From positions 124,001 through 188,000 of the forward strand of contig JANYGP010000071.1 in assembly GCA_025362315.1 (NCBI GenBank): DNA of 64,000 bases, written 5' to 3'. Positions 27,041 to 48,203 of this stretch are shown piece by piece. The notes below the pieces were generated by a model. The model was not told where the DNA came from. It worked only from the letters and a program-made list of their open reading frames with translations, and searched no databases. Positions within the stretch are counted from its first letter, which is position 1; the number at the start of each line of letters is the position of its first letter. The position numbers and the translations under genes are program-made. The stretch comes from Polaromonas sp. GTDB taxonomy: Bacteria > Pseudomonadota > Gammaproteobacteria > Burkholderiales > Burkholderiaceae_C.

Positions 27041-27046
27041 TATAAT
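27041..27046 (+). promoter_or_regulatory. Candidate -10 box for the pseB-led operon
   Basis: A perfect TATAAT lies 82 bases before the pseB start in the divergent gap. The -35 position (about 27018-27023, GAAAAC) matches the consensus poorly, so an activator or another sigma factor may be involved. No JUMPStart-like element was noticed. Confidence 0.35.
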
Positions 27047-27127
27047 GCTTGCAAGCAGTTCCACAGCAAGCGAAAATTAGTTGAATTTAATCTTTAGCCT
27101 GTCACACCCATTGTTATTTATCTTTAT

Positions 27128-28111: not shown

Positions 28112-28124
28112 CACATTGATACGT

Positions 28125-31360: not shown

Positions 31361-31392
31361 GCAAGCCTCACATCTATTGATTGTCATCGTCC

Positions 31393-32394: not shown

Positions 32395-32469
32395 AATTCA
32401 GCTCAGTTTACGGCTCTAAAACAACTACGTTTCAAAGCGTTTGATTCCAACTAAAAGGCAAGCCGACCC

Positions 32470-33759
32470 ATGACCAACACAACCCTCGCCTTACTGGGCG
32501 GTACACCCGCTATTCAAGTGGGATTCAAGCCTTTCAACACCATTGGTGACGAAGAAATTGTCGCCGTAACCGACGTGATGCGTAGCGGCGTACTGTCAGG
32601 TTACATCGGCGCGCGTGGCGAAGGGTTTATGGGCGGGCCCAGAGTAAGAGCTTTCGAAGCTGCTGCGGCGAAATACTTTGGCGTGAAACATGCTGTCGCT
32701 GTCAACTCATGGACTTCCGGATTGACCGCATCGGTCGGCGCTATTGGCCTGGAGCCTGGTGATGAGGTGATTACCACCCCTTGGACGATGGTGGCCACGG
32801 CGACCGCGATTTTGCAGTGGAACGGCATACCGGTGTTTGCCGACATTGATCCCGTCAGTTTCAATATCGATCCATCTAGCGTTGAAAAGTGCATCAGTCC
32901 CAGAACCAAAGCCATTATTGCGGTCGATATTTTTGGTCAGTCAAGCAACATGCGCGCGCTACGCGACATCGCGACCCGACACAACTTAAAACTGTTGGGC
33001 GACACGGCTCAAGCACCAGGCGCCAAGTACTTCGGGGACTCCACTGGTACGCTGGCGGATATCGGCGGCTTTAGCCTGAATTATCACAAGCACATCCACT
33101 GCGGAGAAGGCGGAATTCTGGTGACCGACAACGATGACTATGCGGCGCGGCTGCAAATGATTCGCAACCATGCTGAAGCCGTCGTCGATAGCAACGACCC
33201 GCAAGTTCTCTGCAATATGGTCGGCTCCAACTTTCGGATGGGCGAAATCGAGGCAGCCATTGCCACAGAGCAGCTCAAAAAGCTAGCACCGAACATCCTA
33301 AGCCGTCAGCGCGTCGCGGCTGAGTTCAACGCTGGACTCGGTGCACTTTTAGGTTTAGCCACGCCAAAAGTCAGCGACGGCTGTACCCATGTTTACTATA
33401 TTTATGGTCTGACACTAGACACGACAGCATTGGGCTTATCGAGGGAGAAAATCGTTGCTGCACTGCGAGCAGAAGGCGTTCCAGGAGTTGGCAGCGGCTA
33501 CCAGAACGTACACCTTTACCCTGTGTTTCAACAGCGTATTGCCTACGGTACGAAAGGCTTTCCGTGGACTTCACCTTACTGCGGGCGCAATGTGACTTAC
33601 GAAAAGGGCATCTGTCCTGTCGCCGAACACCTGCATGCAGAAACCTTCATGAGCCTGAACATTTGTCTGAACGACTACTCCACTACCGATGTTGCACTAG
33701 TGGTCAGTGCGTTCAAGAAAGTTTGGGCTAACTTGGATCCCCTGCGAGCTGCGGTCTGA
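32470..33759 (+). CDS. DegT/DnrJ/EryC1-family PLP sugar aminotransferase
   Basis: 429 aa, PLP-dependent. Starts with the LALLGGTPAI motif, then the cofactor pocket and the Schiff-base Lys in FSLNYHKHIHCGEGG. It would add an amino group at C4 (or C3) of a UDP-keto sugar. PseC enzymes are usually ~380 aa; this longer form, with the LLGGTPA opening, is closer to the StsC/AHBA-like branch, so it is not a textbook PseC. It begins a second half of the operon after a 75-base gap. Confidence 0.88.
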   Translation: MTNTTLALLGGTPAIQVGFKPFNTIGDEEIVAVTDVMRSGVLSGYIGARGEGFMGGPRVRAFEAAAAKYFGVKHAVAVNSWTSGLTASVGAIGLEPGDEVITTPWTMVATATAILQWNGIPVFADIDPVSFNIDPSSVEKCISPRTKAIIAVDIFGQSSNMRALRDIATRHNLKLLGDTAQAPGAKYFGDSTGTLADIGGFSLNYHKHIHCGEGGILVTDNDDYAARLQMIRNHAEAVVDSNDPQVLCNMVGSNFRMGEIEAAIATEQLKKLAPNILSRQRVAAEFNAGLGALLGLATPKVSDGCTHVYYIYGLTLDTTALGLSREKIVAALRAEGVPGVGSGYQNVHLYPVFQQRIAYGTKGFPWTSPYCGRNVTYEKGICPVAEHLHAETFMSLNICLNDYSTTDVALVVSAFKKVWANLDPLRAAV

Positions 33760-33803
33760 AACTTAACCTACTGAGTTTTTGCCACAAATTCTCTATATAA
33801 CTC

Positions 33804-34325
33804 ATGACCACGATTTCTGGCCACAAAGTGACCCTGCAGAAATTCACGGCTGCTGACATCAACGACACCTACATCGGCTGGTTGAACGATCCCGTGACCA
33901 TGCGTTTTAGCAACCAACGCTTTTTACGCCATGACCAGCAAAGCAGCCAGCGTTATCTTGACAGCTTCGAGCACAACTCTAACGCCTTTTACGCAGTGCG
34001 TAGTGGTGCATCAGGCCGCATGATTGGCACCATGACAGCTTACACGTCACTCGCGCATGGCACTGCCGACATAGGGATTTTGATTGGCGATCGATCTGCC
34101 TGGGGACAAGGTTTTGGATTAGATGCGTGGTCTACGCTGGCGAATCATTTATTGAATCAACCCCACATACGCAAAATCACTGCCGGCACCCTGGAATGCA
34201 ACGGGCCCATGTTGCGCCTGTTAGCCAAATCCGGCATGGCACCTGATGGCCAGCGCAAACAGCAAGAACTGGTTGAAGGCGTGCCTTACGACATGCTGTA
34301 TTTTGCAAAGTTTTCCGGTGCCTGA
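33804..34325 (+). CDS. GNAT-family N-acetyltransferase (PseH/RimJ-like)
   Basis: 173 aa with the GNAT acetyl-CoA motif around GDRSAWGQGFGLDAWSTLANHLL and the following ITAGTLECNGPMLRLLAKSGM. It probably N-acetylates the amino group placed by the aminotransferase immediately upstream. Its stop overlaps the next gene by 8 bases. Confidence 0.82.
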   Translation: MTTISGHKVTLQKFTAADINDTYIGWLNDPVTMRFSNQRFLRHDQQSSQRYLDSFEHNSNAFYAVRSGASGRMIGTMTAYTSLAHGTADIGILIGDRSAWGQGFGLDAWSTLANHLLNQPHIRKITAGTLECNGPMLRLLAKSGMAPDGQRKQQELVEGVPYDMLYFAKFSGA

Positions 34326-35202
34326 CTACAAATTGCTGCCGCAGCCAGTTGCCGTGGTGTGCCATGACGCTGGAGCTGCAAATATCATCTTGGCGGAAAT
34401 TCAGTCTGCACCAGAGGTCCCATTTTTACCCGTGATGCAAGGGCCAGCGGCCAAACTTTGGGTAGCAAGCGGGTGTACCCTATCTGCTCTGGTCGCGCTG
34501 GATACCGCTCTGCTGACCGCCAGATCAGTCCTCACAGGTACAGGCTGGGCTAGCGACATTGAACATGAAGCCCGCCAACGCGCCAAGGCCGCAGGCTTGT
34601 TCAGTGTCGCCATGATTGACCACTGGGTAAATTACGCTGCACGCTTTGAGCGGCACGGTATGCGGTTGCTGCCTGATGAGGTGTGGGTGACAGACGAGTA
34701 TGCGTTTGAAATTGCATCAACAACCTTTGGCGGCCAAGCTATCCGGCTTCTACCCAATCGATATCTCAACAAGCAAGTACAAAATATCCCGCCGTTGTCT
34801 GGGTTAACAACCGATCAGCTTTTGTATGTGCTCGAGCCGTTACGCTTTATCTGGCCAGGTTGCACCCAGCCTGGAGAGTTTGAGGCGTTGAATTACTTCA
34901 TAAAGAACTTACGCAAAATCGAGACAAAGCAGACTTTGCAAATTCGGCTGCGTCCGCACCCTTCAGATGGAGCAAATAAATACACGGCTTGGCTAACAAA
35001 AAATGCTGAACTCAATATCACTATGGACAACTCTTCAAGCCTAAGTGAGGCGATTGGTCGCGCAGAATGGGTGGCCGGTTGCGAAACCGCCGCCATGGTG
35101 GTTGCACTAGCCGCAGGAAGAAAGGTGTTGTCTACATTGCCACCTCAAGCGCCTAAGTGCCGCTTGCCGCATCCTGGCATTTTGCATCTACGCGATCTTT
35201 AA
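34318..35202 (+). CDS. GT-B-like protein of unknown role (candidate nucleotide-sugar hydrolase)
   Basis: 294 aa from GTG 34318 (MPDYKLLPQPVAVVCHDAGAAN). I do not recognise a precise family. Two halves are visible: an N-terminal Rossmann-like part with VVCHDAGAANII, and a C-terminal part with IRLRPHPSD and the sugar-nucleotide-like VAGCETAAMVVALAAGRKVL. PseG, the UDP-sugar hydrolase needed before PseI, has a MurG-like fold and is otherwise missing here, so this gene is a candidate replacement (inference). Otherwise it could be a glycosyltransferase. It ends 4 bases from the convergent amidase. Confidence 0.6.
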   Translation: MPDYKLLPQPVAVVCHDAGAANIILAEIQSAPEVPFLPVMQGPAAKLWVASGCTLSALVALDTALLTARSVLTGTGWASDIEHEARQRAKAAGLFSVAMIDHWVNYAARFERHGMRLLPDEVWVTDEYAFEIASTTFGGQAIRLLPNRYLNKQVQNIPPLSGLTTDQLLYVLEPLRFIWPGCTQPGEFEALNYFIKNLRKIETKQTLQIRLRPHPSDGANKYTAWLTKNAELNITMDNSSSLSEAIGRAEWVAGCETAAMVVALAAGRKVLSTLPPQAPKCRLPHPGILHLRDL

Positions 35203-35206
35203 CCTG

Positions 35207-36580
35207 CTAATTTGTGGTCGTGAGCAGTTCCATTTGCTCTAACTCGGCAATAAAGCAGAACAGCAACGGGTCGCTGTAGCGGCGAGCCACCAACTGCAAG
35301 CCATAAGGCAAGCCCTCTGGCGACGAGAAAACTGGCGCGCTGACTGCAGGCAAGTGCGTCAAGGTCCACATTAACGCTGAGTCAGGCGCTTCTTCAATCG
35401 CTCGTAGCGGCGCCTCGGCTGCGGTGCTTAATGTCAGCATCACATCAAAGCCAGCATCGCCTGTAGAGGCGTTGTTATCACCCGTAAAAAATTTATCCAT
35501 CAACCGAGATAGCCCAACCTGCTCATCAAGCGCCGTTTCATACTCGGAGACGGTCACCATTTGTCCCGCACTGATCAACCTGTTCATGACGGGAGATATC
35601 AACTCAGCGCGTTTGAACTCTTCTTTAAAGTAGTAGGCCAGAGCCTTGTTGTAGATCGTTTCATGGACGGCGTGCGCGTCGGTCATCCGCGCTGGCAAGC
35701 TTGCGTCAACCAGCTCAAAGCGAGGGTTAGCGGCCAGCTTGGCGCACCATGTGTCAAAAGTCATGTTGGCATATACCGGAACATGCGCCCAAACATGGGG
35801 TTTGACCACGGCTACACGCCATGGCCGCCTTCCAGGTGCCGCCTGACGAGCGCTGTCCGTCAGGGCAGCATCGCTCAACGGGAAATTTTTACCGTGTACC
35901 CGTATCGCATCAAACACAGGCAGAAGGTCAGCAGCATGGTTAACAAAAAAACCCACACTGTCTAGGCTATCGGTAGTTTTGAGGATGCCGGTACGTGGCA
36001 CCAAGCCAAAAGAAGGTTTACAACCCCAGACGCCACAAAAGCTGGCTGGACGGATGATAGAGCCTGCGGTTTGGGTGCCAAGCGCCACTGGCACCATCCC
36101 GGTTGCTACCGCAACTGCGGACCCGCTTGACGATGTGCCAGGAGTACGGTCAGCCGCATGAGGGTTCAAAGTCTTGCCCAAGGAATGAACAGCGAACTCG
36201 GCAGTAACAGTTTTGCCCGGGACAATAGCGCCAAGACGCTTCATGTCGTAAAGCACCCGCGCATCGTTACCCGGCGTGAAGCCTTGCCACAGGGAGCTGC
36301 CCATCTGCGTGGGAAAGTCTGCAGTGTTAAAAATATCCTTAACACCTACCGGCAAGCCTTCAAGTGGGCGGGGCTCGTCTGCAGCGCGCAGGCGATCGGT
36401 TGCTTGTTGGGCTTGAGCCATTAATTTTTGACCGTCAAAGCATTCCCAAGCATGCACTGATGACTCATACGTGTCCACGGCTGCTATGCAGCGTACGGCA
36501 ACATCGGTTGGCGTAAGAGTACCTTCACGGTAACCGGCAAGCATGGTTGGAATGCTTGGCAACTTGGCAAAAGCAGTCAT
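35207..36580 (-). CDS. Amidase-signature-family enzyme
   Basis: 457 aa. All three catalytic elements are visible: Lys in LPVGVKDIFN, the cis-Ser in PGTSSSGSAVAVA, and the nucleophile Ser in TAGSIIRPASFCG. This Ser-cisSer-Lys fold hydrolyses amides and includes GatA, which releases ammonia from glutamine for a partner. The ATG shares one base with the TAA of the upstream sugar amidotransferase (TAATG), so the two are probably translated together. The substrate here is unknown; a role as ammonia donor or as a deacylase of the modified sugar are both possible (inference). Confidence 0.88.
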   Translation of the reverse strand: MTAFAKLPSIPTMLAGYREGTLTPTDVAVRCIAAVDTYESSVHAWECFDGQKLMAQAQQATDRLRAADEPRPLEGLPVGVKDIFNTADFPTQMGSSLWQGFTPGNDARVLYDMKRLGAIVPGKTVTAEFAVHSLGKTLNPHAADRTPGTSSSGSAVAVATGMVPVALGTQTAGSIIRPASFCGVWGCKPSFGLVPRTGILKTTDSLDSVGFFVNHAADLLPVFDAIRVHGKNFPLSDAALTDSARQAAPGRRPWRVAVVKPHVWAHVPVYANMTFDTWCAKLAANPRFELVDASLPARMTDAHAVHETIYNKALAYYFKEEFKRAELISPVMNRLISAGQMVTVSEYETALDEQVGLSRLMDKFFTGDNNASTGDAGFDVMLTLSTAAEAPLRAIEEAPDSALMWTLTHLPAVSAPVFSSPEGLPYGLQLVARRYSDPLLFCFIAELEQMELLTTTN

Positions 36581-37821
36581 TACGCCGACTCGCTTTTTTG
36601 GGCAACTGGCGCAGCTTCAGACTCGGGCTGCGCCTTAGCCAGCATCACCTTTTCAATCAATTGCTGAGGATGCGGCACGAGGCGCTCCTCATTGGGTTCA
36701 CGCTTAGGGTATATCGGAATCACTGTTTTTTTAAGCTCTGCACGGCGGTGTTTTTCCATGGTCTGGAAAAACTCCGCCTCAGTCATGCCAGTGATCTTCA
36801 GGTAGTAGTCAAGTCCCTCAGGCCGCACGCCGTCGTTTTGACGAATCAACTCCCACGCCTCATCACGGCTTAGCAAGCCAGCCCGCACATCCACGCTGGA
36901 ATGAAACGTCGCCCGGCCATAGCCACGCTTGAGGTAATTGGCAAAGTCATGCACGCCAGGCATGATGCACTCCGCGCTCTTATAGCGCTTGTACGAGCCT
37001 TCAATTTGAGTTTCACGCCAGCCGTAGGTGTCGCGTACGAACTCGGTTTGCCGTTCGTCATCCCAAAAAATATAGTCGCCCAGGTGAATGCCGTAAACGC
37101 CGACGCGCTCACACTCTTCAGCCGTGGGAACATTAAACGGGTACAGGTCGCGCTCAGACAAATCGTCCCGCACCATTTGGTCAGGCCGCAGCTTGGCCGA
37201 CACCTTGGTGAAATACTCGCGGTCGAATTTGCGGACCGGTGTTTTGTATGACGCACGGCCCGAGCTTTCAGCGATGGACTCGCCCCACACCAACAATGGG
37301 ATGTTAAAGCGCACAGCTGCCTGAAGAGGAAACGCGCCCACACCAGCATGGCAATGCCAACACGAATCGCCAATCCCCTCAAGCGAATGCTTGGCAATAC
37401 GGTTGATCAGACTACGATTCGGCGTGAACATGATGTGGTCCACGTTGAACTGCTCTAAAGAGTTTTGCAGGTTATACCAACCCGTTTCGCTGTACCAATT
37501 ATGGCTGAAGGTCACGGCTAGCGGCTTCATGCCGTAAACCTTGGTGAGCACGTGCAGCTGAAACGTACTGTCTTTGCCGCCGCTGATGGGAATGATGCAG
37601 TCGTAGTTGTTGCCCGCACTGGCTTTGGCGGCTTCCAGGGTGCGGCGCAAATCGCGTTCACGTTCGGCCCAGTCGATATGAATTTTTTGTTCTGCCGATT
37701 GGCACGCCTGGCACACGCCCAACTCGTCAAAAATCACGCCCTCCTGGGTTTGCGGCACGCAGCAACGAACGCAATACTGAAGGTTGGGAAAAGGTCTGCC
37801 AGCTCGGTTAGTTTCAGTCAT
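36580..37821 (-). CDS. N-acetyl sugar amidotransferase (PseA/WbpG-like)
   Basis: 413 aa. Cys-rich N-terminus (YCVRCCVPQTQEGV, then GVCQACQ), the PP-loop ATP pyrophosphatase motif IPISGGKDSTFQLHVL and a second Cys/His cluster (SCWHCHAG). Enzymes of this type turn an N-acetyl group of a sugar into an acetamidino group using ATP and ammonia. They lack a glutaminase domain and usually rely on a partner such as HisH. No HisH or HisF homologue is present, but an amidase and two other glutamine/asparagine-related enzymes are. The ATG overlaps the upstream stop (ATGA). Confidence 0.88.
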   Translation of the reverse strand: MTETNRAGRPFPNLQYCVRCCVPQTQEGVIFDELGVCQACQSAEQKIHIDWAERERDLRRTLEAAKASAGNNYDCIIPISGGKDSTFQLHVLTKVYGMKPLAVTFSHNWYSETGWYNLQNSLEQFNVDHIMFTPNRSLINRIAKHSLEGIGDSCWHCHAGVGAFPLQAAVRFNIPLLVWGESIAESSGRASYKTPVRKFDREYFTKVSAKLRPDQMVRDDLSERDLYPFNVPTAEECERVGVYGIHLGDYIFWDDERQTEFVRDTYGWRETQIEGSYKRYKSAECIMPGVHDFANYLKRGYGRATFHSSVDVRAGLLSRDEAWELIRQNDGVRPEGLDYYLKITGMTEAEFFQTMEKHRRAELKKTVIPIYPKREPNEERLVPHPQQLIEKVMLAKAQPESEAAPVAQKSESA

Positions 37822-39110
37822 AGGTTGATCTCGGTCATGGCGTCCGGGTAGACACGCTGTTGACGAATAAGGTGTTTAATTTCTTGCGCTACACGTGCTG
37901 TAGCCGATCCAGCAGGGGGGAAAGCATTGCGGTTGGTCACGCCACACGGTGCACCATCCAAGACACGTAGCAGATTTTCAGGACTACTGACGGACTCACC
38001 CAAACCAAGCTTGGCGTAATCAAAATTCATGTTGATCACCATCGGTGAATAAGACAGGCAGAGCACTCTTTTACCAATCAGCGCTGCTTCAAAACCCACT
38101 GTGCTGCTTTGAACAACCACTGTGTCCGACAAATGCAATTGAGCTACCAGAGCGTCCTGGACAGGATTACTTCGATACACCCTGTCCTGAGCGCCAAGGT
38201 CAGGGAACAAATGATATTGGCTTGGATGATAGCGAATCAACAGTGCAACGTCAGGCCTGCTGGCGACCCACGTTCGCAAACGCCGCTCCACGTCCAGAGC
38301 CAAGCCGGCACCCAAAAAATGCTCAGTCACGCCCTCACCAGGCTCCTCCAGGTTACCCGCCCACATCAGCACCTGAAGCCCTTCCCAGCCGAGACTTGTC
38401 CGTAATACCGTTGCAGCAGTTTGGTTGGCGATGTCAAACAGTGGCTCATACGCCGGACAACCTGTTACCGCAATGCGCGCGGCGTCAATACCAGCATCGA
38501 CAAGATTGTTTTTGACAAAATCAGACAGCACTGTGATGCGGTCTGCAAAAACCTTGTAACGCACATAGCTTTCATGCGGTAGCGCGAACAAATCCACCAT
38601 GGTCAAGCAAGGTACACCAGACCGCACAGCTGCTTCAACAGCCGCTTGCTCCGACCGGGGCGACCCTGTACTAACCACTACCGAAGGAGATACATCAGCG
38701 ATCACCCGACCTAAAAAATTCACAGGAGAAAAACTGCGCCTGCCGCCGTCCTGATATTTTTGTGCTGCTGTTTGCGCGCCGAATTCTTCTACCCATTCCA
38801 AGTAATTAACACCTAAATAACACAAGCTTTCATAGGCATCGACATCTGGATGCGAGTTACCCTCAGCGATAGCCCGTCCGCAGTCGAGCGCTAGCTTTGA
38901 ATCAACGAGGTGCATGAAATCGCGATACCCCTTTGGTACCAAACCAAGCCGCTCGGCCTGCTTGTAGCCTAAAGTGAGCGCCAGCAGCTCGCAGCGCATC
39001 CCTTGAGCCTGAAGATACTTGATGACTGGCGCCACCTTAGCGATGTGGCCACTGCCGTAGACCACAAACAAGATGCAAGGACTCGTGTCAACAGTTGCGG
39101 ATGAAGTCAT
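37818..39110 (-). CDS. GT-B-fold glycan protein (epimerase/glycosyltransferase-like)
   Basis: 430 aa. N-terminus FVVYGSGHIAKVAPVIKYLQ is a GT-B Rossmann opening; the C-terminal half has LLIRYHPSQ, VVVQSSTVGFEAALIGKRVL and CLSYSP, resembling surface-polysaccharide transferases of the UDP-GlcNAc 2-epimerase fold. The exact reaction is not recognised. It is the second GT-B-like gene in the island. It is 27 bases after the glutamine synthetase and coupled to the amidotransferase downstream. Confidence 0.65.
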   Translation of the reverse strand: MTSSATVDTSPCILFVVYGSGHIAKVAPVIKYLQAQGMRCELLALTLGYKQAERLGLVPKGYRDFMHLVDSKLALDCGRAIAEGNSHPDVDAYESLCYLGVNYLEWVEEFGAQTAAQKYQDGGRRSFSPVNFLGRVIADVSPSVVVSTGSPRSEQAAVEAAVRSGVPCLTMVDLFALPHESYVRYKVFADRITVLSDFVKNNLVDAGIDAARIAVTGCPAYEPLFDIANQTAATVLRTSLGWEGLQVLMWAGNLEEPGEGVTEHFLGAGLALDVERRLRTWVASRPDVALLIRYHPSQYHLFPDLGAQDRVYRSNPVQDALVAQLHLSDTVVVQSSTVGFEAALIGKRVLCLSYSPMVINMNFDYAKLGLGESVSSPENLLRVLDGAPCGVTNRNAFPPAGSATARVAQEIKHLIRQQRVYPDAMTEINL

Positions 39111-39137
39111 GCCAAATGGTCAATATGCAGCAAGTCG

Positions 39138-40442
39138 TCAGAAAAAATCAACATACCTGCGAAACTCTGCTGGCGACACGTTTAGCATCAATTCATCACA
39201 TTCAGCATGCTTGATTGCACAAAACTCTTTGACAAAACCCGCTCCCAGCCCTGCGGTCAGCACCTCATCAGATTGCAAAGCGTCAAGTGCATCAGGCAAA
39301 GACACTGGCAAACGGGCAATGCCCCTGCTGGTCAGCTCAGTCTGGCTTAACTGGTACAGGTTTTCATTGCACGGCTGACCTGGGTCGAGCTTGCGTGCCA
39401 TGCCGTCCAGACCTGCGTGAACAATCGCAGCGGTCAGCAAATAGGGGTTGCTGGAGGCATCAGGCACCCGAAGCTCTAGTCGTCCACCAGGAATTCGTAC
39501 GAAGGCAGTACGATTATTGTTGCCGTAAGCAATGTTCACAGGGGCCCAGGTAGCACCTGACCGTGAACCACGTGAGACCAATCGCTTATAGGAATTCACA
39601 CAAGGGGCTGCGATGGCCGTCAGGCCTGCGGCATGTGCCATCAGCCCACCCAAAAAGTGGTAAGCCATGAGGCTCAGGTTCATGCCGCGCTTGTCTGACG
39701 CATCCTCAAAGGCGTTGTCACCAAACTTCTTACCTGCCGACATGTGCATGTGCAGGCCACTGCCAGAGCGCTCAGCAAACGGTTTGGGCATGAAGGAGCA
39801 CAGCATGCCGTGCTTTTTGGCAATCGCTTGCGCTGCCATCTTGAAATAGGTCAGGTTGTCCGCCGTGCGCAGGCCATCAGTGTAGGTGAAGTTCATCTCG
39901 AACTGGCCGTTCGCGTCTTCGTGGTCAATCTGGTAAACATCGATACCTGCCGAGTCGAGTGCGGCTCGTAACTCCATCAAGAAAGCGGAGACTGACGACA
40001 GGTGTCGAAAATCGTAGCAAGGCTTGTCGAGCGATTCGGAGTCGGTTGCAACGACGTAGCTACCGGACTCGTCCTTGCGCAGCAGGAAAAATTCAGGTTC
40101 CAGTCCCGAAAAAAATTCCAATCCCGTGACCTCACGGAAATCTGCCAGTGCTTTTTTGGCGATCACACGCGAGTCCAGCGCATGCGGCTGACCGTTCACA
40201 TGGCCGTCGCACGTCACAACCGCCGTACCTGGCATCCAGGGCACGGGGCGAATCACACCGCTGTCGCCAATCGCCATAAACTCAGCGCCATGCGGCCCCA
40301 TGCCCATGCCCGCAATGGCAAAACCAGCAAAACCAGCACCCGAGGTGAAGATCATCTCTTTGTGCTTCGCAGGCACCAGCTTGGCTTTGGGTCTGCCGTG
40401 AATATCAACAAACTGAGCGAGGTAATAGTCAAAATCAGCCAT
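39138..40442 (-). CDS. glnT: Glutamine synthetase type III (GlnT)-like
   Basis: 434 aa, the size of the GlnT group. Visible: the opening DFDYYLAQFVDIHGRPKAK, metal-binding LEPEFFLLR, the Glu/His region GSGLHMHMS, and GGRLELRVPDASSNPYL with the ATP/substrate Arg. Start 40442 follows a GAGG site; an earlier start at 40490 would overlap asnB. The same family contains gamma-glutamylmethylamide synthetase, so the amine added to glutamate need not be ammonia. It lies in a glycan operon rather than with the nitrogen-control genes. Confidence 0.85.
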   Translation of the reverse strand: MADFDYYLAQFVDIHGRPKAKLVPAKHKEMIFTSGAGFAGFAIAGMGMGPHGAEFMAIGDSGVIRPVPWMPGTAVVTCDGHVNGQPHALDSRVIAKKALADFREVTGLEFFSGLEPEFFLLRKDESGSYVVATDSESLDKPCYDFRHLSSVSAFLMELRAALDSAGIDVYQIDHEDANGQFEMNFTYTDGLRTADNLTYFKMAAQAIAKKHGMLCSFMPKPFAERSGSGLHMHMSAGKKFGDNAFEDASDKRGMNLSLMAYHFLGGLMAHAAGLTAIAAPCVNSYKRLVSRGSRSGATWAPVNIAYGNNNRTAFVRIPGGRLELRVPDASSNPYLLTAAIVHAGLDGMARKLDPGQPCNENLYQLSQTELTSRGIARLPVSLPDALDALQSDEVLTAGLGAGFVKEFCAIKHAECDELMLNVSPAEFRRYVDFF

Positions 40443-40462
40443 GCGGTTTACCTCGGTTTTTG

Positions 40463-42211
40463 TTATTGTGGAAAAAATTCTTGCAGCCACAGTTTGGTCA
40501 TCAAGAGCGTACGCAATTGCTTGGTGTGGTTGTGCAAGCCGCTGCGGTGCTCTTCCAGCATGACTTGCAACTCATTGCGATCAAACCGGCCACCGTCAGG
40601 CAGCGCCAGCACATCACGCGCCCACTGAAACAACGGGCCCTTGATCCACTCGCCAATCGGCAAAGTCGGCATGGTTTTGGGTCGGAATACGAAGTCGTGG
40701 TCAAAGTAACGCGTGGCCGCTTCCTTCAAAAAGTGCTTGCCAATGCCGTTTTTAAACTTGGACGTGATCGGCAACCTGGCGAACATTTCGCTAACCCGGT
40801 GATCAAGAAACGGCGCTCGGCCTTCAATCGAAAAGCAGGCACCCATACGGTCACCTTTGACCGAGTTGTTGCCGGGCATCAATGAATTCAATTCATAAGC
40901 GGCAATCTGCTCCATCGGCTCCAGGTCTGCAAACGGCTGCACGATGTCCAGAAACTTGTCCATGGCGCGCTGGGTGTGCGGTAAAAACGCCGGGCTCATG
41001 ATGCGCTGGCGGTCTTTTTCAGTGGTGTAACTGATCAGGTCAAAGTAGCTGCGCATAGAAAAGTTTGCGCGTGTCATACCCGCAAAAAACTGCTCGTTGT
41101 GCCTGAAACCCAACATCACTTCATCAGGCCCGTCCCCCGTGAACATGACAATCTTGCCCTGCTTGTGCGCCTGGCGTGACAACAGGTAAAACAAGAAGAA
41201 AGAAAAGTCGCCGTGCGGCTGCTCGGCATGGCGCACCACCGATTGCGCAATTTCAGGAATGTTCGCGGGCGTGATGTCCAGCGCACTCAGGTTGATGTTG
41301 AATTGCGACGCCACACGCTGGGCGTAGGTAAATTCAGAAAAGCCTTTGTCTTCAATCCTGAGGCCAATCGCATCTAGATGCGGGCGGTTCCACTGCGGTA
41401 CCAAGCGGGAAGCGATGACAGACGAATCAACACCACCGCTTAAAAACAAACCGCCATCCACATCAAAGCGCATTTGCAGCTTGATGGACTCGTCAATGGC
41501 TTGCTCCAGCTCTTCTTGGCTAGCGTCTACCCGCTCACCGCTGAGCGGCCACTCCCAATAACGTTGTGGCTCTGAAAAGCGCCCGTTGCCGTAACGCATG
41601 AAGGTGCCGGGCGGCAAATGGCTAACGCCTTCAAAACAGGTTTCTGGCGGTGGGCAGTAATTGAACGAGAACACATGACCGAGGGCAGCATCATTGACCT
41701 TGCGCTCAAACTTGGGCAGGGCAAGAATGGCCTTCATTTCGCTTGCAAAAGCCAAGCCGCCGTCATATTCAGCATAAAAGCAGGGCTTGATGCCCTGACG
41801 GTCGCGCGCCAGCATGCCAGTCTCGGTACGTTGATCCCAGATGAAAAACGCAAACATGCCGACCAGATCGTCCAGCATTTTCTCGCCTTTTTCGATCCAC
41901 AGGTGTACCAGCACCTCGGTGTCGCAGCGCGACTTGAATTTGTAGCCCTTGGCCCTGAGCTGCTCACGCAGTTCAATGAAGTTAAAAATCTCGCCGTTAA
42001 AAACCACCCACACCTTGCCGTCGGTGCTGCACATGGGCTGCATGCCGTTTTCAGGGTCCACCACGGCCAGGCGCGCGTGGCCGAGCACGGCACGGCCCAA
42101 TTGCTCCACACCCTGCTCGTCAACACCCCGGTATTTGATGGTGTTGATCATGCTCCAAACATCGTCTTTGGTGACGCTTTTGGCGTTGACCACGCCGACT
42201 ATTCCACACAT
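40463..42211 (-). CDS. asnB: Asparagine synthase-family amidotransferase
   Basis: 582 aa. Cys2 (MCGIVGVVN) is the glutaminase nucleophile; class II glutaminase domain to ~residue 200 (YRGVDEQG, FNGEIFNF), then the ATP-dependent synthetase domain with LFLSGGVDSS and TGDGPDEVMLG. AsnB homologues in O-antigen clusters can amidate uronic acids rather than aspartate (established for that family group). Here the location supports a sugar or amine substrate (inference). It lies 10 bases after gcvPB and 20 before glnT. Confidence 0.9.
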   Translation of the reverse strand: MCGIVGVVNAKSVTKDDVWSMINTIKYRGVDEQGVEQLGRAVLGHARLAVVDPENGMQPMCSTDGKVWVVFNGEIFNFIELREQLRAKGYKFKSRCDTEVLVHLWIEKGEKMLDDLVGMFAFFIWDQRTETGMLARDRQGIKPCFYAEYDGGLAFASEMKAILALPKFERKVNDAALGHVFSFNYCPPPETCFEGVSHLPPGTFMRYGNGRFSEPQRYWEWPLSGERVDASQEELEQAIDESIKLQMRFDVDGGLFLSGGVDSSVIASRLVPQWNRPHLDAIGLRIEDKGFSEFTYAQRVASQFNINLSALDITPANIPEIAQSVVRHAEQPHGDFSFFLFYLLSRQAHKQGKIVMFTGDGPDEVMLGFRHNEQFFAGMTRANFSMRSYFDLISYTTEKDRQRIMSPAFLPHTQRAMDKFLDIVQPFADLEPMEQIAAYELNSLMPGNNSVKGDRMGACFSIEGRAPFLDHRVSEMFARLPITSKFKNGIGKHFLKEAATRYFDHDFVFRPKTMPTLPIGEWIKGPLFQWARDVLALPDGGRFDRNELQVMLEEHRSGLHNHTKQLRTLLMTKLWLQEFFPQ

Positions 42212-42221
42212 GGCGGGTCCT

Positions 42222-43646
42222 TCAGTTCTTTAAATCAATGCGAGCAATTTTTCTGCTGATGGGCGCGCTTTCAACCAGCGCTTCATTGTGGGTGTCTTCA
42301 TCAAACACCTTTTGATAAATCCCCACCTGGTAGTCCAAGCTAGCTTTGGTTTCGGTCTCAGTCGGCTCAATCAACATGGCAGACTTCAAGTCACCCGGGA
42401 AGTAAACGCAACCTGCACCCACCAGCGTGGGCGGGTGAATGCCGTAATCAATCAAACGCTTGGCAAATTGCCGGGCCGATGTGTTGAGCTTTTCACCTGA
42501 CAGCAAAGTTTCGTGTTTGCAAAACTGGTTGTATACAGGCGGCAACATGTGGCTCAAACGGTGCTGCAAGTAATTGGCATTCAGCACCGCATGGGTAGAT
42601 GCTTGCCGCAAACCCGCCCCGCCCATGGTGCGCAGGTAGCCATAGGCACGCAGCAACACACCCACATGGCCATGAAAGCTTTTCATTTTGCCGATGGACA
42701 AAGGCCGGTTTGCATCTGGCTGCGCAATACCGTCCAAGCGAGACACTACAGGGCTGGGCAAATATGCCGCCAGCGCAGCTTTGACAGCCACCGGGCCCGC
42801 GCCTGGCCCACCACCGCCATGCGGTGTGGAAAACGTTTTATGTACGTTGACGTGCACCACATCAAAACCCATGTCGCCCGGCCGGACGATGCCCATCAAT
42901 GCGTTCAGGTTGGCACCGTCGTAGTACAGCAGCGAGCCATTGGCATGCACCGCATCGGCAATCTCGACAATCTGGTTTTCAAACAAACCGAGCGTTGACG
43001 GATTGGTCAGCATGAAAGCTGCAACATCGGGTGTCAGCATGCTTTTGAGCGCCACCAGATCAACCCGACCCTTCATGTCTGATGGAACAATTCTGCAGTC
43101 AAACCCAGCCATGGCGGCTGACGCCGGGTTGGTGCCGTGCGCAGAATCAGGCACGATGACGATGGGTCTGCGATTGTTCAAGCGTGCAAAGTGCGCACGT
43201 ATCACCAACAACCCAGCCAGCTCGCCGTGCGCACCCGCTGCGGGGGCCAGGCAGCAAGCGTCCATGCCGGTGATTTCGCACACCATGGTTTGCAGGCGCT
43301 CGTACATTTCCCATACACCACCCAGCGTGTTGGTGTCTTGCAAAGGGTGCGCGTTTTCAAAGCCTGGCAAGCGCGCCAGTACGTCGTTGCGCTTGGGGTT
43401 GTACTTCATGGTGCAAGAGCCCAACGGGTACGGCCCATTATCAACACCGTGCGATTCGTGGCTCAGACGTGTGAAGTGGCGAGTCACATCGACTTCGCTG
43501 ACTTCAGGCAAACCAATGGTTTGCCTAATGCGCACGAACGAAGGCTTGGTAGCGCGCGAATGGATTTCGGAGGATGCAAAAACATCGCTCGCTGCACCGG
43601 GGCGATGCAGATCGGTGATCATTTGGGAAGGCGAGGTAGCAGCCAT
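42222..43646 (-). CDS. gcvPB: Glycine dehydrogenase (decarboxylating) subunit 2
   Basis: 474 aa, the usual length of the subunit carrying the PLP. The Schiff-base Lys is in HVNVHKTFSTPHGGGGPGAG; other conserved stretches are SHGVDNGPYPLGSCTMKYNP and PDSAHGTNPASAAM. It is normally the C-terminal half of the P-protein, which decarboxylates glycine onto the lipoyl arm of GcvH. Start 43646 lies one base after the gcvPA stop (TGACATG). Most Burkholderiales I know carry a single-chain GcvP near gcvT and gcvH; none of those is in this window. Confidence 0.92.
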   Translation of the reverse strand: MAATSPSQMITDLHRPGAASDVFASSEIHSRATKPSFVRIRQTIGLPEVSEVDVTRHFTRLSHESHGVDNGPYPLGSCTMKYNPKRNDVLARLPGFENAHPLQDTNTLGGVWEMYERLQTMVCEITGMDACCLAPAAGAHGELAGLLVIRAHFARLNNRRPIVIVPDSAHGTNPASAAMAGFDCRIVPSDMKGRVDLVALKSMLTPDVAAFMLTNPSTLGLFENQIVEIADAVHANGSLLYYDGANLNALMGIVRPGDMGFDVVHVNVHKTFSTPHGGGGPGAGPVAVKAALAAYLPSPVVSRLDGIAQPDANRPLSIGKMKSFHGHVGVLLRAYGYLRTMGGAGLRQASTHAVLNANYLQHRLSHMLPPVYNQFCKHETLLSGEKLNTSARQFAKRLIDYGIHPPTLVGAGCVYFPGDLKSAMLIEPTETETKASLDYQVGIYQKVFDEDTHNEALVESAPISRKIARIDLKN

Positions 43647-43647
43647 G

Positions 43648-45060
43648 TCAAACGCACTCCACACACGCTTTGGTGTGCTTTGCATAGGCTTTGATGTCAG
43701 CCATAGTTTTGGTCTCGTTCACGGCAATCAGCAATCCGCGTTGGTGCCCTGCCAGCAATTCAGCCACCGGCACGCCCGCAAAAACACCAAGACGCTTCAT
43801 GCGCGCGCAAAACTCAGTGGCAGGGATTGGCAACTCAATGGCAAATTCATTGAAGTGCACGCCAGTGCGCAGCAGCTTGATGCCCGGCAACGCCATCAAC
43901 AAATCGCGCAACATCACCGCATTGGCAGCATTCACCTCAGCAATTTGCATGAAGTTGCGTTCACCCAAACACGCCAGATACACCGCTACACGAATGGCGT
44001 TCAAAGCCTGGTTAGAGCAAATATGGCTGGTGGCTTTGTCACGTGCCACATGCTGTTCGCGGTCTTCTTTGACCAACGCATAACCGAGTTGACCATTGAG
44101 GTCATGCACACGCCCCACCAGCCTGCCGGGCAGGTAGCGCTCCAGCGGTTTGGCGCAGGCAATGATGCCGATGTACGGGCCGCCAGCAGACAACGGCAAA
44201 CCCAAAGGCTGGCCTTCGCACACCACAATGTCGGCGCCCAATTGACCCGGCGCTTCAATCCAGCCGCAGAGCAAAGGATTAACGCAAACGCTCAAGAGCA
44301 CGCCGCTTTGTTTGCAGACGCCAGACAAAGCACCCACATCTTCGATCACACCGAATGCATTCGGGCTTTGCAGCACAACGCCAGCAACATCATTGCCCGC
44401 CAGCTTGGCAGCCATGGCAGCTACATCTGCCAGCCCAGTCACCGGGTCTTGCAAAACATAGTCCACCGTCACACCACGCGGCAACAAATAAGTCGCCAGT
44501 ACTTCCTGGTATTCAGGCCAAACAGCTTGCGCCACCACCACGCGGCGTTTGCCTGTGGCTGAGCACATCATCCAGCACGCCTCAGCCAGCGCGGTAGCCC
44601 CGTCATACACCGAGCAGTTCACACACTCGCGCCCCAGCAGTTTGCCCACCAAAGTTTGAAATTCAAACAAAGCCTGTAGCAGACCTTGGCTCATCTCGGG
44701 CTGGTAGGGTGTGTAGGCGGTTAAAAATTCGCCACGCGATGCGATGGCATCGACCACTGCCGGGATGTAGTGCTCATACGCTCCGCCGCCTAAAAAGCTG
44801 GCATGCGTCAAGGTGCTGGCATTCATATCGGCCATCACGCGAACGTCGCGCATCAGTTGCCATTCATTCAGCGTTGGGGGCAGGTCAAGCTCACGTAGCA
44901 GGCGCACCTGTGCAGGCACGTCTTCAAACAGCTGCTCAACTGACTGCAGCCCCATGACTTGCAGCATGGCTTGCACATCAGCTGCGGTATGAACGTTGTA
45001 GCCCACCGGCGAGTCAGAAATCGCATTGGCCAAAATGCTGGCGTCTAGTCGTTGGTTCAC
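43648..45060 (-). CDS. gcvPA: Glycine dehydrogenase (decarboxylating) subunit 1
   Basis: 470 aa, matching two-subunit GcvPA proteins (~450). Conserved stretches include FLGGGAYEHYIPAVVDAI, TAYTPYQPEMSQGLLQALF and CVNCSVYDGATALAEA. Together with GcvPB it forms the glycine decarboxylase P-protein. It starts a seven-gene minus-strand run after a 100-base gap that holds a possible internal promoter. No frameshift or missing core region is seen, so the enzyme appears intact. Confidence 0.92.
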   Translation of the reverse strand: MNQRLDASILANAISDSPVGYNVHTAADVQAMLQVMGLQSVEQLFEDVPAQVRLLRELDLPPTLNEWQLMRDVRVMADMNASTLTHASFLGGGAYEHYIPAVVDAIASRGEFLTAYTPYQPEMSQGLLQALFEFQTLVGKLLGRECVNCSVYDGATALAEACWMMCSATGKRRVVVAQAVWPEYQEVLATYLLPRGVTVDYVLQDPVTGLADVAAMAAKLAGNDVAGVVLQSPNAFGVIEDVGALSGVCKQSGVLLSVCVNPLLCGWIEAPGQLGADIVVCEGQPLGLPLSAGGPYIGIIACAKPLERYLPGRLVGRVHDLNGQLGYALVKEDREQHVARDKATSHICSNQALNAIRVAVYLACLGERNFMQIAEVNAANAVMLRDLLMALPGIKLLRTGVHFNEFAIELPIPATEFCARMKRLGVFAGVPVAELLAGHQRGLLIAVNETKTMADIKAYAKHTKACVECV

Positions 45061-45160: not shown

Positions 45161-45715
45161 TCAATTTGCCTGCTTGCCGCCCAGCTGGCGCAGCGTCCAC
45201 CACATGATTCGAATGTCAAACCACCAAGACGCCTGGCTGGCATAGGCCAAGTCTTGCTGCAGGCGCAACTCCCAGCTCATCTCAGAACGCCCGCTGACCT
45301 GAGCCAGCCCAGTAATGCCCGGCCGTACCGCGCAGCGAAGCTCCCAATCGGCTTTCGAGTAAAGCCGGCGTTGTTCTGGCACATCGGGCCGGGGGCCGAC
45401 CAGGCTCATGTGGCCGATCAAGACATTGATGATTTGCGGCAATTCGTCAATACTCGTGCGCCTGATGAACCTGCCCACCCGCGTGATGCGCACGTCGTTT
45501 GCCTCGGTGAAGTACGGGCCTGTTGTTGCGGCGTTCCGCACCATGCTTCTGAACTTGAACATGCCAAACTCTTGCCCACCCCGCCCCACGCGCGTTTGGC
45601 GAAAAAAAACGGGCAACCCACTGTCCATCCAGATCGCTAGCAGGGTAACCAACAATACTGGGCTGAGCAACACCAGCGCAAGCAAGCTCACAACAATGTC
45701 GGTCAGGCGCTTCAC
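45161..45715 (-). CDS. PglC-type polyprenyl-phosphate sugar-phosphate transferase
   Basis: 184 aa, the short monotopic form of bacterial sugar transferases. One N-terminal membrane hairpin (LTDIVVSLLALVLLSPVLL), then FRQTRVGRGGQEFGMFKFRSM, the catalytic DELPQIINVL and MSLVGPRP. It loads the first sugar-1-phosphate onto undecaprenyl phosphate for a repeat unit or glycoprotein glycan. The GTG start overlaps the aldolase stop (GTGA). It matches a CapD/PglF product, tying the two ends of the island. Confidence 0.9.
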   Translation of the reverse strand: MKRLTDIVVSLLALVLLSPVLLVTLLAIWMDSGLPVFFRQTRVGRGGQEFGMFKFRSMVRNAATTGPYFTEANDVRITRVGRFIRRTSIDELPQIINVLIGHMSLVGPRPDVPEQRRLYSKADWELRCAVRPGITGLAQVSGRSEMSWELRLQQDLAYASQASWWFDIRIMWWTLRQLGGKQAN

Positions 45716-46548
45716 GCCGGTGCCTTGGCAGCACCCGCCAAGGCTGCCAAATTGCCAATCAGATCTGCGGTGCGAATCCTGCCCAGTTCGATACTGGCAA
45801 GGCTGCGTTGCGCCAGTTCTTGCTCAGTAACCCGCAATTGCGCAACCGCTTGCTCCAGAGACTGTTCAGTGGCGTGGCCGTCAGCACGGATAAAAGTGCG
45901 CGACAAAATCACTGCCGAAGACTGAAGCCGCAGATGCTCGGCCAGCACATCGCGCCCGGGCAGCGCGCCTTCGTCCATACGCGCGATGCCGCCAAAACCA
46001 AAGCGCAAGCCGCGCGCTGTGGCCGCCCGAGCCACGCGGTCTACATGCCCCAGCAGCAGCGGCTCAAACATAAAGCGGCAGCCCAGCGACAGATGCAAAT
46101 CATTGAGCCCGACGAACACCTCTTCAAGCCCCGGCGTATCAATCCAATCATTTAACGATTGCAATGCCCCTGCAGTTTCAAGCAGCGGCACGATAGGCAC
46201 TCGCTTCGCCACAATTTTGGCAAATTCCTGCAACTCTAAAGCAACAGTAAACATGGGCAACATGATCATGTCAGCACCTTGCGCCAACACCGCATCTACC
46301 TCAGCTTTGCTGGCGGTCGGGTTGCCGGTCTGGAATGGGTTGACGCGCACCATCAGCTTTGAATGCTTTAACACCGCTTTCACCCGGCCCACGTCCTCAA
46401 TATGATGGGTGGTGATAAATGTGTCGTGACCCTTTTGCCGTTCAGCCTTGCCGTTGCGTTCCAGATCAACAAACAAGCGCACCCCTGGCAGCACATCGCA
46501 GCGTTGCGCCAAACTCAGACAGTTGGTAATGATGAGCAGGTCTAGCAT
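45712..46548 (-). CDS. HpcH/HpaI aldolase-family protein
   Basis: 278 aa. Contains FVDLERNGKAERQKGHDT (metal/phosphate region), LMVRVNP, MIMLPMFTVALELQEF and VPLLETAGAL with the conserved Glu. The family cleaves or forms C-C bonds with pyruvate-like partners, or acts as citrate lyase beta-like enzymes. Its job in a glycan cluster is not known to me; it might make or break a keto-acid side chain (inference). ATG 46548 is preferred to an upstream TTG. Confidence 0.78.
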   Translation of the reverse strand: MLDLLIITNCLSLAQRCDVLPGVRLFVDLERNGKAERQKGHDTFITTHHIEDVGRVKAVLKHSKLMVRVNPFQTGNPTASKAEVDAVLAQGADMIMLPMFTVALELQEFAKIVAKRVPIVPLLETAGALQSLNDWIDTPGLEEVFVGLNDLHLSLGCRFMFEPLLLGHVDRVARAATARGLRFGFGGIARMDEGALPGRDVLAEHLRLQSSAVILSRTFIRADGHATEQSLEQAVAQLRVTEQELAQRSLASIELGRIRTADLIGNLAALAGAAKAPA

Positions 46549-46610
46549 GTTTAAAGAAGACAGCAACTTGCGCTGGAAAGGGTTGACGACGTCATAGCAA
46601 GATTTTAGGG

Positions 46611-48101
46611 TCAGGCAACGTGCAATAGCGGATTGAGCCTTGCCTTTAGCAAGCTGCGCAGCATGGGACTGGCCATCACCGCGCTAATGATCACAAGCAG
46701 CGCAAAGACAGCGCCGCTCATCATGCTTAACAACAGGCTCAAATCACGCAGAAACGGCTTGAGCGCCACCAGCGCCCCACAAACCAAAAGTGGAGGCAAG
46801 CAGGCAAACGTCGAAAAACTGCCCGCGATGCTTTGGCGTTCAAGCAGCATCAGCATACCGGCCATACCCGCAAAAACGGCATTGAGCAACCACATGACGT
46901 TGGTTCCGGTGTTTGTGCTGCTCAAATTGCCTAACAAACCAACACCTAGTAACGCAACGAGCCCGGACACCATCACCCACACGGCAACCTGCATGCGCCC
47001 ATTTGCCGCCATCACTGTCAGCAGCACCGCCATCAGCGCCTGCGGTAGCAGCGACCAAATGCCAACGGCGCTCCACTGCGCAATTATTTCCAGGCTGGCA
47101 GCGCTCATGCGGCCCCAGCCAAACAGCAAACCAGCGAGGGGTAACGCAAACGTTGCCACCACACAGGCAGCGGCGCAGGCCAAGGCCCACGCCGTTAAAA
47201 ACGCCAGGCCAACAGCCTGATGCCGTGCGGTTGAGCCCACCTCAGTACGGGTAATCGCCGGAAACGCCAGGCTGGCTACCAGTTGCACAGCCAGCACCAG
47301 CGGTAGTTCAATCAGCTTCCAGGCGTAATTAAAACTGGCCAGAGCGCCCTCCCCTGCGCTGGACGACAAACTGCGCGCCACCAGGGGGAACACCAACAGC
47401 AAGCCTGACGACAGCGCCGCCCACAACCACACTCGGGCAGCTGGCAGACGAGTTGCGTGCCCAACGGCGGTAGGCTGAGGGCGAGTCGGCAAACGCCAGG
47501 CTAGCCAAGTTAGCCTACCCACCATGGCAATGGTCAAACATATTCCTAACACCGTCAACGCCGGCATCTGAGACGCAGCGCTTTTAGCTGCTATAACCAA
47601 GCCACCAACCAGCGCCAGATTAACAATCAGATTCCCGGCATACATGCCGACAAAGTCACGCTCATGTTGCAGCCGGGTTACCCACAACGCTGCCAGCATG
47701 GCCAGCGGAAGCGCTAACGCGCTCCAGCCAAGCGACGCAGCACTGAGTGCTTTGAGTTCCGCGCTCAAACCGGGGGCCAGCGCCTGCACCAGGGCATGCC
47801 TGAACAGCCAAACCAGCCCGCCCAACGCAAGCCCGCCACCTGTCAGGACGTAAGCAACTTTTTTTTGCCCTGCAGCTAACGTGCTCAGGCTTTGATTTGC
47901 CCAAACCGGCAGCAACACATAAGACAGCGCCCCACTGACCAACATACCCACCAACAAGTCTGGAAGCGTGAACATAACGATGACCACATCGCCCATGCCA
48001 GTGCTGCCAAAGGCAGCGGCTTGAGCAGATTCGCGCAGCAAGCCAAGCACGCGACTCAGTAGCAATAAACCGAATGAAAATATACCAGCGCGCAGATACA
48101 T
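46611..48101 (-). CDS. MurJ/MviN-like lipid-linked oligosaccharide flippase
   Basis: 496 aa with about 13-14 hydrophobic segments. N-terminus FGLLLLSRVLGLLRESAQAAAFGSTGMGD is the MurJ/MOP signature. Because it is at the head of the glycan run, it probably flips the undecaprenyl-linked product of the PglC-like transferase rather than lipid II. It is a MurJ-type paralogue, not a Wzx of the usual type; the housekeeping murJ is probably elsewhere. Start ATG 48101, divergent from lysS. Confidence 0.8.
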   Translation of the reverse strand: MYLRAGIFSFGLLLLSRVLGLLRESAQAAAFGSTGMGDVVIVMFTLPDLLVGMLVSGALSYVLLPVWANQSLSTLAAGQKKVAYVLTGGGLALGGLVWLFRHALVQALAPGLSAELKALSAASLGWSALALPLAMLAALWVTRLQHERDFVGMYAGNLIVNLALVGGLVIAAKSAASQMPALTVLGICLTIAMVGRLTWLAWRLPTRPQPTAVGHATRLPAARVWLWAALSSGLLLVFPLVARSLSSSAGEGALASFNYAWKLIELPLVLAVQLVASLAFPAITRTEVGSTARHQAVGLAFLTAWALACAAACVVATFALPLAGLLFGWGRMSAASLEIIAQWSAVGIWSLLPQALMAVLLTVMAANGRMQVAVWVMVSGLVALLGVGLLGNLSSTNTGTNVMWLLNAVFAGMAGMLMLLERQSIAGSFSTFACLPPLLVCGALVALKPFLRDLSLLLSMMSGAVFALLVIISAVMASPMLRSLLKARLNPLLHVA

Positions 48102-48203
48102 GGTGTGAATTATCAAGGCTTCAACTCACGCAGTTAACCGGGCCTGCAAATGCAACGTAGTAAAAACTTAAAATCACAGGTTTATTGCACAACTGACCGC
48201 CTC

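Follow-up and report, generated by a model that had tools for sequence, protein, structure and literature searches.

A four-gene cassette carrying a divergent glycine decarboxylase pair, found in place of a single AsnB at a glycan locus, may supply methylamine for N-methylcarboxamide formation

Why are both subunits of a two-chain glycine decarboxylase (P-protein) encoded within a cluster of surface-sugar genes? The question is raised by a 64,000-nucleotide stretch of DNA from Polaromonas sp. (GenBank assembly GCA_025362315.1, contig JANYGP010000071.1, positions 124,001 to 188,000 of the forward strand; hereafter the window). A first-pass annotation of this stretch described one run of seven genes encoding GcvPA, GcvPB, an AsnB-type amidotransferase (here AsnB*), a type III glutamine synthetase (GlnT), a GT-B-like protein, a PseA/WbpG-like amidotransferase (here WbuX) and an amidase. 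All seven open reading frames (ORFs) lie on the minus strand at 35207–45060 as described, and six of the family assignments score above their profile cut-offs, the GT-B-like call alone being weak (Table 1). The glycine cleavage partners gcvT and gcvH had been reported as absent from the window, and neither was matched when window ORFs of at least 60 amino acids were compared by blast (E 1e-4) with the gcvT and gcvH of the same genome. The P-protein pair is thus part of a glycan locus, as the annotation had argued, rather than of a local glycine cleavage operon. The run consists of two modules: a cassette of four genes (gcvPA, gcvPB, asnB* and glnT) and a separate pair, WbuX plus amidase. On balance we think it somewhat more likely than not that the four genes form a single swappable glycan-decoration cassette that replaces a plain AsnB, wherein methylamine would be loaded as a glutamyl amide and end as an N-methylcarboxamide.

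The gene grouping that had been singled out in the window recurs. The order gcvPA-gcvPB-asnB*-glnT was found in seven genomes, with pairwise protein identities of 69–95%, and therefore does not reflect chance. The copies are those of the window, loci L010, L012 and L013, L048 (genome G501), L050 (genome G404) and genome G451, in which gcvPA lies on another contig (L113) than the remaining three genes (L049). A search with the GT-B-like protein led to five loci. Three of these, from Acidovorax (L010, L012 and L013), carry the cassette genes in the same order at 77–85% identity. Acidovorax sp. GW101-3H11 and FJL06 are among the cassette strains. In a Ramlibacter locus (L011), a single AsnB of another kind occupies the place of the cassette, and WbuX (87%) and the amidase (66%) are kept; L014 has an AsnB of roughly 34% identity, with the cassette absent from the 12 kb covered. 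Scanning a same-family sample of 399 genomes for GcvPB revealed the cassette type in four, namely the genome of the window, G501, G404 and G451, and an AsnB scan of 299 relatives of G501 returned the last three of these again. Among 399 genomes sampled from the order, cassette-type GcvPB is present in the genome of the window alone, and 85 others carry a canonical GcvPB at 44–52% identity. Likewise, the genome of the window is the only one with a close AsnB in a sample of 369 from the class, two others matching at 35–36%. Genus-level searches around G501 and G404 yielded one genome each. Plasmid searches with GcvPB (144 records) and AsnB* (84 records) gave only matches below 60% identity and no close relative; neighbourhoods of these records were opened for two Rhodobacterales plasmids. 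Both of these plasmids, which also match the GT-B-like protein, carry WbuX with HisF/HisH and no cassette.

The site that holds the cassette is occupied by a different gene in most relatives. An HpcH/HpaI aldolase-like gene marks the surrounding block, and homologues of it (E ≤ 1e-40) occur in 35 of the 399 family genomes. The site beside the sugar transferase was read in all 35. Four have the cassette there (the genome of the window, G404, G451 and G501) and 30 have a lone AsnB; one has neither, and none has both. The sole site with neither (L107) has the weakest HpcH match, and an AsnB of either kind is thus present at 34 of the 35. All four genomes with cassette-type GcvPB fall among those with the HpcH gene (Fisher p = 5e-5, to be taken only as a guide because related genomes are not independent); the two scans covered 399 family genomes each, to all appearance the same draw.

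Including that of L011, the 31 lone AsnB proteins are at least 57% identical to one another and 32–37% identical to AsnB*. They begin 0–170 bases from the sugar transferase in 28 of the 31 loci, the exceptions being L123 (869 bases), L011 (770 bases) and L101, where an over-long ORF produces an overlap. Lone AsnB and AsnB* have the same site, the same neighbours and the same architecture, but they differ in sequence, and loci with a lone AsnB have no gcvP or glnT. The sugar transferase adjoins the site in other loci of the block as well, and homologues of the GT-B-like protein adjoin it whether the cassette or a lone AsnB is present. In two lone-AsnB loci (L105:6722-9717 and L106:9291-12330), three extra ORFs lie between AsnB and the GT-B homologue; those of L105 encode 295, 356 and 353 amino acids.

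The exchange is most clearly seen by comparing the window with its twin, L108, which has MurJ, HpcH, the sugar transferase, a lone AsnB, and homologues of the GT-B-like protein (60%), WbuX (92%) and the amidase (75%), and then continues with the same set of nonulosonate genes. A blastn alignment joins the two over 25.5–48.3 kb of the window in blocks of 64–80% DNA identity. There is one large unequal gap, in which window positions 39068–45298 (6.2 kb, the cassette) face 2.0 kb with one asnB in L108; other gaps are shorter and of similar length on both sides. This single large inequality indicates that the cassette stands in for one AsnB.

The P-protein pair of the cassette is distinct from that of the glycine cleavage system, in which P-protein chemistry normally leaves an aminomethyl group attached to a lipoyl carrier. 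The seven cassette GcvPB proteins form one clade (support 1.0) with a stem of 1.15 against a mean inner depth of 0.30, apart from 29 canonical proteins drawn from the loci of the 85 genomes. Of 144 positions that are invariant in canonical proteins (two-chain proteins and two single-chain ones), all cassettes retain 123, and the other 21 differ in every one of the seven. GcvPA, which shares 69–78% identity with its counterparts in the other six cassettes, keeps 59 of 80 such positions, with 21 again changed in all seven. The canonical set for GcvPA comprised ten two-chain proteins and one single-chain protein, since the short flank left the gene complete in only ten of the 29 loci; an earlier column comparison used six cassette copies. 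The lysine motif HKTF (K283) that binds pyridoxal phosphate (PLP) is present in all seven cassette GcvPB proteins, as is a six-residue insertion, LVGAGC, at about positions 421–426, which is found in none of the 29 canonical proteins. Cassette and canonical two-chain P-proteins thus have in common both subunits, the PLP lysine and most invariant positions, but they differ in clade, in the insertion, in 21 changes per subunit and in their surroundings. Specifically, gcvT and gcvH lie beside gcvPA in all eight canonical loci opened, and beside the cassette in none of the seven genomes, within the DNA covered (from 11.5 kb in two pieces for G451 to 64 kb for the window). We therefore rejected the idea that the cassette is a displaced catabolic glycine cleavage operon, although this argument is weaker for G404 and G501. 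The genome of the window has a canonical gcvT-gcvH-gcvP set elsewhere (contig C97). Its assembly, which is 88.5% complete with 6.3% contamination, also holds, at the end of a contig, part of a further single-chain gcvP (L002, G000:C34:43954-45777), possibly a contaminant.

The fourth gene of the cassette points to the amine involved. The best solved relative of GlnT is 9qur, named 'Glutamate--methylamine ligase' (1.4e-152), followed by 7cql (1.4e-97), which carries the PDB name type III glutamate--ammonia ligase; glutamine synthetases follow from 1.2e-70. We take 7cql to be RhGmaS, the published residues of which fall at their number + 20 in the 7cql alignment. Six of 31 plasmid records matching GlnT were opened, and each has amidotransferase-like, glxC/GXGXG and glutamate-synthase-like genes following glnT; on one plasmid the first of these is annotated 'hypothetical' and is amidotransferase-like by profile. 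Although not so annotated there, this mgsABC-like gene set is the N-methylglutamate synthase route, and at least two of the plasmids have more genes of methylamine type close by (dimethylamine monooxygenase, sarcosine oxidase subunits).

Residue-level comparison gives the same picture. The accessible part of the RhGmaS paper (PMC7948447) lists catalytic residues Asp177, Glu186 and Arg312 and pocket residues Tyr147, Gln175, Glu179, Asn188 and Lys30′, and notes that GmaS has Ala in place of the ammonium-binding Asp (Asp50′) and Trp in place of the flap Glu. When these positions were transferred by hand from the 7cql alignment, all ten residues, including the Ala and Trp replacements, proved to be present in each of the seven cassette GlnT proteins; at the two replaced positions, ammonia-type synthetases in the alignments have Asp and Glu. 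With neither ammonia-handling residue present, GlnT as a plain ammonia synthetase was rejected. It is the only type III ligase above cut-off in the genome of the window. The earlier proposal that methylamine is carried as a glutamyl amide therefore fits the relatives of GlnT, its GmaS-type residues and the plasmid operons.

The resemblance to the N-methylglutamate pathway (GmaS, MgsABC, Mgd) extends to the GmaS-type ligase and to the next gene of the plasmid relatives, which is of the class-II (Cys N-terminal) amidotransferase type. In contrast, the cassette glnT has no mgs-like genes behind it and is partnered by an AsnB of a glycan locus; methylamine, which that pathway consumes, would here be made. 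A search for an MgsC-like gene, run without a positive control, found none in five genomes (four with the cassette and one with a lone AsnB).

The third gene encodes the candidate user of the glutamyl amide. AsnB* best matches the solved structure 7ylz (1.5e-50), ahead of Escherichia coli AsnB (1ct9, 1.3e-34). We presume that 7ylz is TsnB9; the PDB entry itself states 'hydroxyamidotransferase'. The glutaminase features are intact, with an MCG start in all seven copies and NGE in the consensus. Comparison of this domain with lone AsnB and three MgsA-like proteins revealed consistent changes and no clear signature. In all seven cassette genomes asnB* adjoins glnT, whose predicted product is the amide in question.

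AsnB homologues that use N-substituted glutamines are of a known kind, judging from the accessible portions of two papers (PMC6133997, PMC13418202). In the first, the glutamine-synthetase homologue FzmN puts acetylhydrazine on glutamate, and the AsnB homologue FzmA frees hydrazine from glutamylhydrazine, transfer to an acceptor not having been reconstituted; TsnB9 is cited there as taking hydroxylamine off the side chain of glutamate and passing it to a carboxyl group. In the second, a TsnB9 homologue takes a free carboxylic acid as substrate in the presence of ATP. The fosfazinomycin/kinamycin system (FzmN, FzmO, FzmA; PMC6133997, in part) thus resembles the cassette in that a glutamine-synthetase homologue loads an unusual nitrogen nucleophile that an AsnB homologue releases, but the nucleophile is acetylhydrazine or hydrazine rather than an amine and the product is an antibiotic rather than a glycan. 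Trichostatin TsnB9 is similarly reported to pass the N-X group of a gamma-substituted glutamine on to a carboxylate, but it is distant from AsnB*, and its hydroxamate comes from glutamine oxidation, not glycine decarboxylation (PMC13418202, in part). Glutamyl-carried nitrogen transfer by AsnB homologues is known, and the cassette would be a variant of that logic whose new element is the source of the amine.

On these grounds we propose the following route. GcvPA/GcvPB, acting without H-, T- or L-protein, would decarboxylate glycine and free methylamine. The GmaS-type GlnT, to judge by its residues and the operons of its relatives, would join methylamine to glutamate, giving gamma-glutamylmethylamide. 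The class-II glutaminase domain of AsnB* would hydrolyse this amide and channel methylamine to the ATP-dependent synthetase domain, where, by analogy with other AsnB homologues, it would be condensed with a carboxylate of a glycan precursor to give an N-methylcarboxamide. Where a lone AsnB is encoded instead, the corresponding position would carry a plain carboxamide. Because gcvPA, gcvPB and glnT accompany AsnB*, which replaces the other AsnB, in each cassette observed, the P-protein and GlnT would, most simply, be the makers of its nitrogen donor; and methylamine is suggested both by the GmaS-like character of GlnT and by the fact that simple glycine decarboxylation yields it. The narrower proposal, that a P-protein freed from H-, T- and L-protein has become a dedicated methylamine maker, that its product reaches a surface glycan by way of gamma-glutamylmethylamide and an AsnB homologue to form an N-methylcarboxamide, and that the four genes together alternate, as an allele, with one plain-amide AsnB, we consider evenly balanced. 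No description of the cassette or of such an N-methylamide route was met in the literature searched, which excluded most subscription journals.

Several points weigh against the methylamine route. What the comparisons establish is the cassette and its gene order, the swap, the independence from WbuX and the amidase, the divergence of the P-protein and the GmaS residues; methylamine release, the preference of GlnT, the donor of AsnB*, the acceptor carboxylate and the plain-amide product of the lone AsnB are inferred. P-protein without H-protein frees methylamine only slowly, and no report of a dedicated methylamine-releasing P-protein was met in the literature searched. The cassette was met only among close relatives in the order, class and family samples. 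The ten GmaS residues are also carried by all three plasmid GlnT proteins compared (53–55% identity), and so mark a GmaS-like group rather than distinguish methylamine from other small amines. Furthermore, GlnT identities track those of GcvPA, GcvPB and AsnB* less closely (r 0.61–0.68) than the latter track one another (0.91–0.95; 21 pairs). The first-pass annotation had made much depend on whether this genome has another glycine cleavage system, and across the cassette genomes the outcome is mixed. Of six searched, four have a separate single-chain gcvP, namely that of the window, G451 (in two contig pieces) and those of L010 and L012, the genome of L013 having been left out; it was not found in G404 (96% complete) or G501 (92%), a search that did not extend to gcvT and gcvH. 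In these two the cassette P-protein could serve a scattered glycine cleavage system. If gcvT and gcvH are also missing there, it cannot do so; if they are present, it might. Finally, ordinary glutamine is a further product of FzmN in vitro, although the Km for this reaction is far poorer (PMC6133997, in part).

Two other readings retain the four genes as a unit and change the chemistry. According to one, the amino acid decarboxylated by the P-protein is a different one, such as serine (giving ethanolamine) or alanine (giving ethylamine), and the amine formed is loaded by GlnT and built by AsnB* into the matching N-substituted amide. A broad-spectrum enzyme that glutamylates 1-naphthylamine is reported (PMC11335346). 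This enzyme is presumably related to the type III ligases, and ethanolamine amides of uronic acids are found in the Campylobacter capsule. The positions changed in all seven copies of both P-protein subunits would suit a new substrate, but most of the universal positions are kept, the nearest solved relative of GlnT is named a methylamine ligase, and all six plasmid relatives lie in mgs-like operons. We think such an amine unlikely.

According to the other, the cassette is a nitrogen supply, in which the P-protein cooperates with the H-, T- and L-proteins of the genome, GlnT makes glutamine from the ammonia, and AsnB* forms a plain carboxamide. That gcvT, gcvH and gcvP exist elsewhere in the genome of the window, that no further gcvP turned up in G404 or G501, and that the comparable ligase FzmN makes glutamine in vitro (PMC6133997, in part) all speak for this. 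However, one AsnB suffices at 30 of the 35 block sites, the P-protein forms a divergent clade of its own, and GlnT lacks both residues used by ammonia-type synthetases in the accessible part of PMC7948447. A plain nitrogen supply has, in our estimation, a rather low probability.

The endpoint suggested by the first-pass annotation, in which methylamine passes as a glutamyl amide to the WbuX-like enzyme and yields an N-methylacetimidoyl nonulosonate, is not supported by comparison between loci. WbuX and the amidase share a run with the cassette in the window and in L010, and a GmaS-like ligase is present, as this endpoint would need. Yet WbuX and the amidase occur without the cassette (L108, with WbuX at 92%, and L011, at 87%), and L012, L013, L048 and L050 have the cassette but not that pair, so that the two modules are independent in both directions, and WbuX was rejected as the user of methylamine. 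It is AsnB*, not WbuX, that accompanies gcvP and glnT in all seven genomes, which makes an N-substituted carboxamide the likelier product and leaves the acetimidoyl endpoint very improbable. We give equally little credence to the idea that the sugar receives an activated aminomethyl or one-carbon unit from the P-protein through an unrecognized carrier, with GlnT and AsnB* acting apart: aminomethyl on a lipoyl carrier is the normal product of P-protein and the changed residues could suit another carrier, but there is no carrier protein among the four cassette genes (carriers elsewhere were not sought) and gcvPA, gcvPB, asnB* and glnT occur together in all seven genomes.

The second module has a partnership of its own. 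WbuX proteins of one clade (87–92% identical) are followed by the amidase in all four loci in which they occur (the window, L010, L011 and L108), and tblastn searches for HisH and HisF found neither in these four. Conversely, all 13 other WbuX-bearing loci tested, a set that left out L009, L014 and L049, have HisH and HisF homologues and lack this amidase; L050 is without any of these. The window WbuX scores above its family cut-off, like the WbuX/PseA enzymes that form amidines with HisH/HisF, but it differs from them in being paired with an amidase in the absence of HisH/HisF, and it is unlinked to the cassette. The amidase is likely to be a nitrogen supplier, or some other partner, of its WbuX whether or not the cassette is present, and as a supplier it may provide the nitrogen for amidine formation.

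Table 1. Features of the Polaromonas window around the cassette, with profile scores and, in brackets, cut-offs
Feature	Position	Strand	Profile match or content
gcvPA, divergent P-protein subunit 1, cassette gene 1	43648..45060	-	PRK00451 508.6 bits (364)
gcvPB, divergent P-protein PLP subunit, cassette gene 2	42222..43685	-	PRK04366 607.1 bits (441)
asnB*, amidotransferase of AsnB type, Cys glutaminase domain at the N terminus, cassette gene 3	40463..42211	-	TIGR01536 390.8 (267.1)
glnT, gmaS-like glutamate-amine ligase, cassette gene 4	39138..40490	-	TIGR03105 551.7 (469.6)
GT-B-like protein, right boundary of swap site	37818..39110	-	PF13579 20.6, under cut-off (29.7)
WbuX, N-acetyl sugar amidotransferase, separate module	36580..37821	-	TIGR03573 335.5 (203.2)
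Amidase-signature enzyme adjoining WbuX, separate module	35207..36580	-	PF01425 221.9 (27)
Sugar transferase of the initiating phosphoglycosyltransferase type, bounding the swap site on the left	45161..45715	-	PF02397 225.8 bits
HpcH/HpaI aldolase-like gene, block marker	45712..46566	-	PF03328 31.3 bits, weak
MurJ-type flippase, block member	46611..48116	-	PF03023 60.0 bits
Sugar genes	25103..35202		dehydratase (-); PseB, PseF, RmlD-like, NeuB, GT2, Gfo/Idh, DegT, GNAT, orf318 (+)

The minus-strand run extends beyond gcvPA through the sugar transferase, the HpcH-like gene and MurJ, and is faced by plus-strand genes of pseudaminate or nonulosonate type (PseB, PseF, NeuB, DegT). Its junctions are tight: gcvPA and gcvPB overlap by 38 bases, gcvPB and asnB* are 10 bases apart, glnT and the GT-B-like gene are separated by 27 bases, the latter overlaps WbuX by 4 bases, and WbuX and the amidase have one base in common. 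The 28-base overlap of asnB* and glnT is contingent on the glnT start chosen, and an internal ATG at about 40442 may be the true one. Two Rhodobacterales plasmids have an aldolase of the HpcH family between NeuB and AsnB (L008:5740-6561), and the role of this aldolase may be to help make the acid that AsnB amidates. In G404 (L050:4687-8110), the ORFs adjoining the cassette are polysaccharide deacetylase-like, amidinotransferase/arginine deiminase-like (a weak Pfam match) and a methyltransferase, and the homologue of the GT-B-like protein lies farther from the cassette in the opposite orientation.

If the methylamine route is correct, these bacteria would encode a genetic route for making methylamine, a compound usually met as a substrate for degradation, and would use a P-protein outside the glycine cleavage system. 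The glutamyl-carrier logic of fosfazinomycin and trichostatin would be extended to surface sugars, and it would become possible to predict from a genome whether a glycan is modified as a methylamide or as an amide. Because nature has exchanged one asnB for four genes at a single site, the proposal is directly testable with two related strains.

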